This document shows positions 36,722 to 38,743 of a stretch of 55,655 nt of DNA, in pieces (within the stretch, counting starts at the first letter, position 1; each line of letters starts with the position of its first letter). Below the pieces are notes generated by a model. That model did no database searches. It was not told the DNA's origin and saw nothing but the letters and a program-made list of their open reading frames with translations. The DNA lies in the NCBI RefSeq assembly GCF_005404945.1, contig NZ_BJDG01000025.1:1-55655 (forward strand), in the 5' to 3' direction. Both the position numbers and the translations under genes were made by a program. Source of the stretch: Lactiplantibacillus pingfangensis (GTDB taxonomy: Bacteria; Bacillota; Bacilli; Lactobacillales; Lactobacillaceae).

Positions 36722-36761
36722 GATTTCATTAATGAAATCGTTTACAATATCATTAATGATA
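36722..36761. promoter_or_regulatory. Two palindromes with a CATTAATG core before the FMN reductase genes
   Basis: GATTTCATTAATGAAATC (36722-36739, perfect 18 bp) and TATCATTAATGATA (36748-36761, perfect 14 bp). The core CATTAATG is the same in both. They overlap a TTTACA (36741) and lie upstream of TATAAA-like text, so they look like tandem operator sites. A redox or MarR/TetR-type regulator is plausible but not in view. Confidence 0.65.
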
Positions 36762-36811: not shown

Positions 36812-37420
36812 ATGCACAAATTTATTGCGATTGTTGGGACCAATTCTGATCAGTCCACAAATCGAAAGTTATTACAATTTATGCAAAAACATTTTGCCGA
36901 CCAAGCGGCCATTGAACTGGTTGAAATTAAGGATTTACCGATGTTCAATAAGCCAGAAAATAAACAAGTGCCAGCGGCGGCAACGGCGATTGCCGAAAAG
37001 ATTGACCAAGCGGATGGGGTGATTATCAGTACCCCTGAGTATGACCATTCGGCACCAGCGGTCTTGATGAATGCGTTGGAATGGCTGTCATTCCATATTC
37101 ATCCCTTTGTGGATAAGCCAGTCATGATCATCGGCGCGTCATATGGGTCGTTAGGGACCTCACGCGCACAGGCTCATTTGCGGCAGATTTTGGATTCGCC
37201 AGAATTACGTGCGCGGATCATGCCTAGTTCAGAGTTCTTATTAGGGCATTCATTGCAAGCTTTTGATGAAGATGGCAACTTAATTGATGCCCAAAAGTTA
37301 GCGAAGTTGACGGGGCTGTTTACTGATTTTCAGACGTTCGTCGATATTACCGCTGAGCTAAATCATGCGAACGAGGCTAATCGTCAAGAAGTACAAAACG
37401 TTAATTGGGACAAGCTATAG
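36812..37420 (+). CDS. NAD(P)H-dependent FMN reductase family protein
   Basis: A 202-aa flavodoxin-like oxidoreductase. FMN phosphate-loop text GTNSDQSTNRKLL (about residues 8-20), STPEYDHSAPAVLMNALEW (about 74-92) and the loop GASYGSLGTSRAQ (about 109-121) match the NADPH:FMN reductase/ChrR family. AAAGGAG precedes the ATG. The next gene starts 15 nt later and its first 180 residues are a paralogue, so the two probably work as a pair or heteromer under the twin CATTAATG sites. Confidence 0.9.
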   Translation: MHKFIAIVGTNSDQSTNRKLLQFMQKHFADQAAIELVEIKDLPMFNKPENKQVPAAATAIAEKIDQADGVIISTPEYDHSAPAVLMNALEWLSFHIHPFVDKPVMIIGASYGSLGTSRAQAHLRQILDSPELRARIMPSSEFLLGHSLQAFDEDGNLIDAQKLAKLTGLFTDFQTFVDITAELNHANEANRQEVQNVNWDKL

Positions 37421-37435: not shown

Positions 37436-38743
37436 ATGAAATTAGTTGGAATTGCCGGTTCAGTTGCAGATAAGTCATACAACCGGTTACTATTAAAATT
37501 TATTGCGACGCATTTTAGTGACACCGTTGACGTTGAAATCTTGGACATTCAAGATGTGCCGATGTTTAATCAAAGCGATGATCAAACTAACAGCGACGCC
37601 GTTCAGTATTTAAGTCACAAAATCCAGCAAGCGGATGGTGTGATTATTGCAACACCTGAACACAATCATACGATCACCGCTGCGTTAAAGAGTGTCATTG
37701 AATGGCTATCTTTCAGTATTCATCCATTATCTGGCAAGCCGGTGATGATTGTCGGCGCCTCGTATTATGATCAAGGTTCATCACGCGCACAGTTGAATTT
37801 GCGGCAAATCTTGGAATCTCCCGGCGTCGATGCGGTTGTCATGCCCGGAAATGAATTTTTACTCGGCGAAGTTAAAGATGCTTTTGATGATCAGCATAAT
37901 TTAAAGGACCCACGAACAGTTGGCTTTTTAAAGGAAACGCTTGAAAAGTTCGTTAAGTTTGTTAAAGTCATCAATACGATGAATGGCCCAGTCGAAGACG
38001 ATAGTTGGAAGTCGGAAGATTTGGAAGCCCATGGCAAAGTTGAAACGACGATTGAAGGCGTGGATATGCATGCAGCCGATTGGGTCGAACAGGCGGCGGC
38101 TAAAACACATGCCGCTGAAGGGGACGACACCGTTAAGTTGGATCGTGGTGTCCTGACTGTCAATCAGTTGAATTACTTCTTAAATTCGATGCCGATGGAA
38201 TTAACTTATGCCGATGCGAATAATCAATTTATTTACTATAATCATAATGCCGATGCCAAAGATATGATGGCGGCGCGGACACCAGCGCAAGCCGGCAATC
38301 CGATGGCTGATTGTCATCCGAAGCGAGCCATTCCGCATGTACAACAAGTGATTCACATGCTACGAACCGGTAAGACCGACTTGTTCAAGTTACCCGTTCC
38401 AGGAAATGGTCCCGAAAAGTACATTATGCATTACTATCAAGCGATGCATGATGCCAAAGGCGAATACAAGGGGATTAATGAATTTGTCCTCGATATTTTG
38501 CCAATTGTGAAATATTATTTGGCACATACTGGTCAAGTGTTAGCCAAGGATCCGAATGCTAAAGCCGATGCCATTTCTGGCGCTTCTGCCAAATCCGCTG
38601 ATGCCAAACCGGACAGCGTTTCGGGTGCATCCGCAGACGCCGAACCGGAGCAACCTGATGAAGTTTCAGCTGCGTCAGCAGATCCTGAACCAGTTAAACC
38701 CGAAGTTGACAGTGTTTCGGGCGCTTCTAGTAACGACAACTAG
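37436..38743 (+). CDS. FMN-reductase domain fused to PAS/DUF438-like domain and a repeated flavinylation-like tail
   Basis: A 435-aa three-part protein. Residues 1-180 are a flavodoxin-like NAD(P)H:FMN reductase ([44 protein letters not shown]). About 233-365 is a PAS-like domain of DUF438 type ([20 protein letters not shown], then [11 protein letters not shown]). Residues 366-435 are Ala/Asp/Pro/Ser-rich, probably disordered, with DAISGAS (378-384), DSVSGAS (393-399), DEVSAAS (408-414) and DSVSGAS (425-431) at a 15-17 residue period. These resemble the Dxx(S/T)GA(S/T) site that ApbE flavinylates. No signal peptide is present. ApbE is not in the window. Covalent FMN is inference. Confidence 0.85.

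Follow-up and report, generated by a model that had tools for sequence, protein, structure and literature searches.

Probable flavinylation sites repeated in the tail of a cytosolic FMN reductase-PAS protein of Lactiplantibacillus pingfangensis, and a link to the FRedA/FRedB-LjPAS system

Why would a cytosolic reductase end in a flexible tail that repeats the motif to which ApbE attaches flavin mononucleotide (FMN)? The question is raised by a gene in the 55,655-nucleotide stretch of Lactiplantibacillus pingfangensis analysed here (the window), a single open frame (37436..38743, + strand) encoding a 435-residue FRedB-like protein of the Lp2732 type, in which an FMN_red domain and a PAS_10 domain are followed by a motif-bearing tail. 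The tail (residues 374-435; 38555..38740, +) has an AlphaFold predicted local distance difference test (pLDDT) value below 50 throughout, which agrees with an earlier reading made from the letters alone (the sequence-only reading) that had called it probably disordered. It carries strict D-x-x-[ST]-G-A-[ST] motifs at site 1 (DAISGAS from residue 378, acceptor Ser384; 38567..38587, +), site 2 (DSVSGAS from residue 393, acceptor Ser399; 38612..38632, +) and site 4 (DSVSGAS from residue 425, acceptor Ser431; 38708..38728, +), and an off-consensus site 3 (DEVSAAS from residue 408, acceptor Ser414; 38657..38677, +); on recheck these sequences, start residues and acceptor serines matched the earlier reading exactly. 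Our answer, held with good confidence, is that this protein and the 202-residue protein encoded just before it form a cytosolic NADH (reduced nicotinamide adenine dinucleotide):flavin reductase of the FRedA/FRedB type, in which the ApbE-flavinylated tail would serve as a built-in substrate. Covalent flavinylation of the tail, taken by itself, is very likely.

The tail motifs and their conservation

When the residues of this tail were shuffled 200,000 times, at least one strict D..[ST]GA[ST] motif appeared in 0.27% of cases, at least two at a frequency of 5e-6, and three in none, against the three strict motifs and the SAAS variant observed; a chance repeat is rejected by these shuffle counts and by the clustering of the motifs. 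A recent duplication of the motifs in DNA is likewise rejected, since all four copies differ from one another at the DNA level, also in their synonymous codons.

Orthologues of the 435-residue protein occur in 21/21 genomes of the genus, their tails holding four motifs in 11 cases and three in 10, at spacings of 12-26 residues. A search of the last 110 residues with the pattern D....A[ST], which itself fixes the D and the A, yielded 74 units, with Ser or Thr at position 4 and an acceptor Ser in 74/74 and Gly at position 5 in 73/74. The single unit without this Gly is site 3 (SAAS) of the window protein, which the sequence-only reading had picked out as the odd one; because the other 10 of the 11 four-motif tails in the genus are strict at all four sites, SAAS is a local change. 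The same site reads DEVSGAS in L020-L022, and D378 and A383 of site 1 are invariant in a 22-sequence alignment.

The wider family was followed in a named set of 62 loci, taken from a scan with one genome per species and including 58 of PAS type (the split locus L104 counted), and in a tail set of 128 sequences, made up of 57 named loci and 71 Lactobacillaceae stretches (48 fusions and 23 solo PAS-tail genes), with some species represented twice and with L104 (split genes), L106, L108 and L109 (fusions of 817-819 residues) and L110 (FMN_red alone) left out. At least one strict motif is present in 111 of the 128 tails and at least two in 97; the 295 strict motifs counted in all compare with a mean of 0.5 and a largest value of 3 in 500 shuffles. 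An order-wide sample of 20 further loci gave at least one strict motif in 19 and at least two in 17. The number of repeats thus varies while the motif stays, as the earlier reading had asked of homologues: three or four copies in the genus, zero to six strict copies in the 128 tails, with diverging linkers between them. Many loci of the Bacillus type have a tail ending in DAVSGAT...DTVSGAT, with just two sites about 10 residues apart.

Twenty distant PAS_10 proteins from the same genome set, picked as expected negatives, proved to carry motifs in 14 cases and none in 6, so that they provide no plain negative control. Eight were checked with Pfam: the motif-bearing ones were FMN_red-PAS_10 proteins (L297, L298, L303, L312) or a solo PAS protein (L308), and the motif-less ones were of DUF438-hemerythrin-PAS (L310) or PAS-only (L306, L316) architecture. 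Judged from their sequences, a further, divergent subfamily of FMN_red-PAS proteins thus has motif tails too, and the checked PAS_10 proteins of other architecture lack them.

Two departures from the usual layout were seen among relatives. A 713-residue protein (L290:2501-4642) has, after its FMN_red and PAS domains, a motif-bearing linker and then what looks by eye like another PAS domain, which gives the appearance of a doubled PAS-tail unit. One genus (L275-L287; family f4, genus g43) stands out in that 10 of its 13 loci encode tails with abundant His and Gly around or between the two motifs; such tails possibly bind metal.

ApbE enzymes and their link to the tail

The sequence-only reading made its proposal depend on an apbE gene in the genome, and there are three, two of them encoding proteins without a signal peptide; signal peptides were called by a simple hydrophobicity and lipobox rule and not by a trained predictor. 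The ApbE on contig 3 is a lipoprotein, and its gene neighbours one for a secreted-looking protein that bears DVVSGAT and DVVTGAT motifs. The signal-less ApbE on contig 15 (316 residues) shares its stretch with an FMN_bind, FAD_binding_2 and FMN_red fusion gene, and the other signal-less enzyme, of 333 residues, lies on contig 6 (L003:1423-2421). By the branching order of a tree of 91 ApbEs the contig-6 enzyme falls among free-standing cytosolic ApbEs, apart from the lipoproteins, in a group next to operon-linked ApbEs such as L164, L167 and L174. In each of three genomes (G002, G008 and G010) one of the two ApbEs is a lipoprotein (L204, L203 and L205), and the other ApbE of G002 and G010 (L227, L228) groups with the contig-6 enzyme. 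Because all three keep intact tails (L020, L036, L021) with only a lipoprotein and one further ApbE, an enzyme of the contig-6 type is likely the one that would act on the window tail.

Gene order ties apbE to these tails in many relatives. ApbE is encoded among the neighbouring open reading frames in 39/62 named loci, at +1 in 23, at -2 in 13 and at -3 in 3 (L106, L108, L109), all 39 lacking a signal by our rule, and a signal-less apbE lies within two open reading frames in 36 of the 58 PAS-type loci. In the Lactobacillaceae stretches ApbE accompanies 16/48 fusions and 5/23 solo PAS loci, and in the order-wide sample apbE is within about 2.5 kb in 16/20. Among the operon-linked ApbEs the signal rule flagged L146, for a hydrophobic stretch, and the truncated L179. 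At L132, L135, L136 and L146 apbE adjoins a solo PAS-tail gene, and no FMN_red gene is found within the 1.5-2.5 kb read on each side; therefore the link of apbE is to the tail.

Co-occurrence in whole genomes points the same way. With cut-offs of about 1e-35 for PAS and 1e-50 for ApbE, a full ApbE was found in 120 of the 121 Lactobacillaceae genomes with a strong PAS match (the sole miss, G310, is 76% complete) versus 71 of the 229 others, 350 genomes together; the latter are not a clean negative set, because some of them hold a more distant motif-bearing FMN_red-PAS protein. FMN_bind gave no match in 18 genomes that have both tail and ApbE (20 less the incomplete G310 and G123), and NQR2_RnfD (NqrB/RnfD) was found in 0/18 of them; 17 of them contain one ApbE gene and the remaining genome contains two. 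Signal calls cover 15 of these 19 loci (all but L236, L238, L239 and L240), and all 15 lack a signal, L235 being truncated at its start. Among the families searched (the tail, FMN_bind and NQR2_RnfD), the tail is the only candidate ApbE substrate in these 18 genomes; DUF2271, DUF3570 and Flavodoxin_4 are further described substrates outside that set.

The experimental precedent comes from Lactococcus. A class of FMN_red proteins associated with ApbE, in which a C-terminal extension holds one to two motifs, was described in 2024, mostly from Firmicutes, and two of its members, from Lactococcus lactis and L. taiwanensis, were flavinylated by their own ApbE in a manner requiring the motif Ser/Thr (PMC11334425). 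Like this class, the window protein has an FMN_red domain and ends in a disordered extension with Dxx[ST]GA[ST] sites, but it has three strict sites and one variant instead of one or two; and whereas an apbE gene in the neighbourhood was a search criterion of those authors, and is a mark of the class, the signal-less apbE genes of our genome lie elsewhere than beside the pair. The window protein is therefore a variant and no plain member of the class. The available parts of that paper, whose topic is "extracytosolic" electron transfer, mention neither a PAS domain nor FRedA/B-LjPAS. A Lactococcus lactis plasmid (NZ_CP042409.1), typed as conjugative, carries a complete apbE - FMN_red - FMN_red-PAS operon (L295:3400-6209) downstream of a Crp/Fnr-family regulator gene, and a similar gene set is present on a Lacticaseibacillus paracasei plasmid (L296). 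The FMN_red-PAS_10 protein of the L. lactis plasmid has two DATSGAS sites, and by analogy with this operon the Lactococcus proteins tested in 2024 probably belong to the FMN_red-PAS_10 family. A seven-residue terminal tag has also been found to be enough for ApbE (PMC12052999). Taken together, conservation, the linkage and co-occurrence of apbE and the Lactococcus experiments support the earlier claim that the repeats are ApbE flavinylation sites, very probably.

Several observations weigh against this reading. In 81 of 91 aligned ApbEs another residue takes the place of the Mg-binding Asp equivalent to FmnB D301 (Glu in 79, Lys in 2), the ten that keep the Asp being seven rows of the lipoprotein clade and L106, L108 and L109; both signal-less ApbEs of our genome carry Glu at this position, and their activity is putative. 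We found no apbE adjacent to the gene pair in the window, nor does one adjoin the 11 closest named loci (L049-L059). Of the 128 tails, 17 have no strict motif, although 16 of these still show a less strict core of the form D...[GSA]AS, for example DASASAS or DAVSSAS, and only L160 has neither. A Gly to Ala change in the motif cuts flavinylation to about half in a Klebsiella pneumoniae model (PMC12052999), which by analogy predicts poor labelling at site 3. Across the genome there is scarcely any enrichment of the degenerate DNA pattern, with 9 matches versus 6 for the reversed pattern, and the weight rests on the clustering of the motifs and their conservation and not on this count. The association of ApbE with PAS is a raw one that ignores phylogeny and counts some species twice, and the Lactococcus proteins tested in 2024, given by accession, were compared with ours by description only (PMC11334425). 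Finally, LjPAS, the separate PAS protein of the L. johnsonii system taken up below, made FRedA/B assemble more slowly and left dimers that had already formed unaffected (PMC4500961), the reverse of what a carrier that helps the enzyme would do.

Tail and enzyme may have changed together in some lineages. Among 58 tail-paired ApbEs the Arg matching R217 of the contig-6 enzyme is missing in five (L184, L186, L195, L196, L198), and the tails at these five loci have no Gly at position 5 and little or no Ser/Thr at position 4. Gly is also lacking at 5 of the 53 loci with the Arg (L070, L080, L146, L165 and L192, of which L080 and L192 are one species), and L095/L191, L162 and L182 combine the Arg with a position 4 that is seldom or never Ser/Thr. 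As many columns were scanned, this covariation is only a lead. In the alignment of 91 ApbEs, where most signal-less enzymes have Glu at the FmnB D301 position, the Thr four residues past it is changed to Lys, Ser or Gly in 39/91 rows.

The FRedA/FRedB system and the role of the tail flavins

What might tethered flavins do in such an enzyme? The upstream gene (36812..37420, +) encodes a FRedA-like FMN_red protein of 202 residues (Pfam 1.1e-36), with no PAS domain and no motif, and is co-directional with the 435-residue gene across an intergenic gap of 15 nucleotides. In 59/62 named loci the gene directly upstream (-1) belongs to this FMN_red BLAST cluster. In Lactobacillus johnsonii N6.2, FRedA and FRedB form a heterodimer with two FMN sites that oxidises NADH and makes hydrogen peroxide (PMC4500961). 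The FMN_red match, the nearly constant neighbourhood and this heterodimer together make the 202-residue paralogue very probably the partner subunit, as the sequence-only reading had proposed.

The published system resembles the window pair in its two adjacent FMN_red genes and its PAS_10 domain; LjPAS, however, is encoded by a separate gene, whereas the PAS_10 domain of the window is fused to FMN_red. In L. plantarum the counterpart is reported to be fused to PAS-10, and the homologues and fusion partners shown include Lp2732 and EF1227 (PMC4500961). According to the same source, LjPAS is a 28-kDa protein that improves the solubility of FRedA; FRedA/B accept FMN as a substrate (Michaelis constant 20 uM), bind it only as a dimer (dissociation constant about 2 uM, with 0.58 FMN per purified dimer), and use oxygen, but not the quinones tested, as acceptor. 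In the text of PMC4500961 the words "covalent" and "ApbE" do not occur and tail motifs go unmentioned.

Both published quantitative PCR primers for LjPAS match one of our loci (L154) exactly, and the 244-residue protein encoded there ends with three motifs, DATTGAT, DTATGAS and DTSSGAS; its genome (G097) has one ApbE of 308 residues without a signal (L222). The native ApbE of E. coli works in the periplasm, where it would not reach LjPAS made in that host. The LjPAS studied was an E. coli product, apparently without co-expressed ApbE (PMC4500961). Flavinylated extensions of FMN_red proteins (PMC11334425) and the FRed/PAS system (PMC4500961) are each already known; what is new is that LjPAS itself, by its sequence, carries three flavinylation motifs, so that both literatures appear to describe one system. 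Many-site tails, the LjPAS motifs, lineages with relaxed sites and the union of the two systems were not found among the open-licence literature searched, nor was a cross-reference between ApbE flavinylation of FMN reductases and the peroxide-making FRedA/B-LjPAS. If this is correct, LjPAS, published as a regulator, was assayed without its cofactors and would be a multi-flavin electron carrier of a hydrogen peroxide-forming enzyme.

We infer that a cytosolic ApbE, most likely the contig-6 copy, would attach FMN through a phosphoester to the last serine of D-x-x-S-G-A-S at three or four sites of the 435-residue protein, and that electrons would pass from NADH to the reductase's own bound FMN and on to the tethered FMNs, which would act as a built-in flavin substrate at high local concentration and hand electrons to oxygen, giving hydrogen peroxide, or to another acceptor. 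We give about even chances to the broader proposal that in the FRed/PAS enzymes of Bacillales and Lactobacillales, the LjPAS system included, the physiological acceptor is the tail-tethered FMNs and not mainly free FMN; tail and ApbE would then have drifted jointly to relaxed sites (DxxASAS) in some lineages.

The alternative that fares best, though we hold it possible rather than probable, makes the tail FMN a tethered cofactor, which would fold back to occupy the dimer's FMN site and take over from the weakly held, dissociable FMN as prosthetic group. Such a role was proposed for the Lactococcus proteins from AlphaFold models (PMC11334425), and the dimer-dependent, partly occupied FMN binding of FRedA/B (PMC4500961) would suit it. 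However, tails with up to six strict motifs outnumber the two FMN sites of a heterodimer, the spacings vary, and solo PAS-tail genes occur at 23/71 loci. Both the surplus of sites over pockets in some tails and the existence of solo PAS-tail genes favour a substrate or carrier over a fixed cofactor.

The sequence-only reading had suggested an electron wire, in which the tail flavins relay electrons over a distance to a remote acceptor as in multihaem proteins. The presence of several sites on a tail, separated by 12-26 residues within the genus, would allow this, and multi-flavinylated secreted proteins have been proposed as relays (PMC8238504). SaFMN3 and CbFMN4 also carry several covalent FMNs per chain, but there each FMN sits in a folded FMN-binding domain and the proteins are predicted to be extracellular (PMC10339131, PMC8238504). 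A disordered chain, by contrast, offers no fixed path, many Bacillus-type loci have only their two closely set sites, and in a three-FMN protein the authors saw a single potential and no directionality (PMC10339131). A wire is thus unlikely here, and the observations are explained no less well by a tethered substrate or cofactor. Equally doubtful is a sensor, in which the PAS domain and the tail flavins, as redox reporters, would tune FRedA/B assembly or rate by oxygen: the assembly effect reported for LjPAS was obtained with protein that was probably unflavinylated, and the multiplication of motifs would be left unexplained. Very improbable, lastly, is that the D..SGAS units are unflavinylated linker repeats kept for other modification, binding or solubility, as the Pro/Asp/Ala/Ser-rich composition of the tail and relaxed forms such as DASASAS in some lineages might suggest, given the linkage and co-occurrence of apbE, the flavinylation experiment in Lactococcus (PMC11334425) and the restriction of motifs, among the PAS_10 proteins checked, to FMN_red-PAS_10 (four) and solo PAS (one) proteins, with none in the three of other architectures.

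Domains, promoter region and related flavoproteins

The FMN_red domain, a flavodoxin-like FMN reductase fold (residues 1-146; 37436..37873, +; Pfam PF03358, 8.8e-38), is matched by Foldseek to the ChrR, FerB and SsuE structures, and the PAS_10 domain (residues 245-354; 38168..38497, +; Pfam 6.2e-29) has as its top fold match 2qkp, the C-terminal domain of SMU_1151c. The AlphaFold model, built on a shallow 22-sequence alignment (mean pLDDT 68.9, predicted template modelling score 0.45), shows helices and strands to about residue 365, mostly at pLDDT 70-90 with weaker parts such as 109-115 and 137-144. We found no Pfam match to FMN_bind (PF04205) at E<=1, and none to FAD_binding_2, in the 435-residue protein. 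A secreted protein is rejected, as the frame starts with MKLVGIAGS and shows neither signal nor lipobox by eye.

Before the 202-residue gene, at 36722-36761, there are two CATTAATG-centred palindromes of 18 and 14 bp that overlap promoter-like hexamers; these palindromes, the exact one at 36722-36739, were not found in 13/13 genus relatives, the readable ones among 21 genus loci that include the window's own copy. Three further proteins of the genome are predicted to be flavinylated (L017:442-2829, L014:8291-10777 and L016:7585-9972); their FMN_red, FMN_bind and FAD_binding_2 domains are ordered differently in each. These fusions have one cytosolic flavinylation motif, and the 435-residue protein differs from them in lacking the latter two domains. 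The hydroxycinnamate reductase HcrA/HcrB of L. plantarum consists of two contiguous proteins with COG0431 domains (PMC10295242), and by analogy the three fusions may be HcrB-like.
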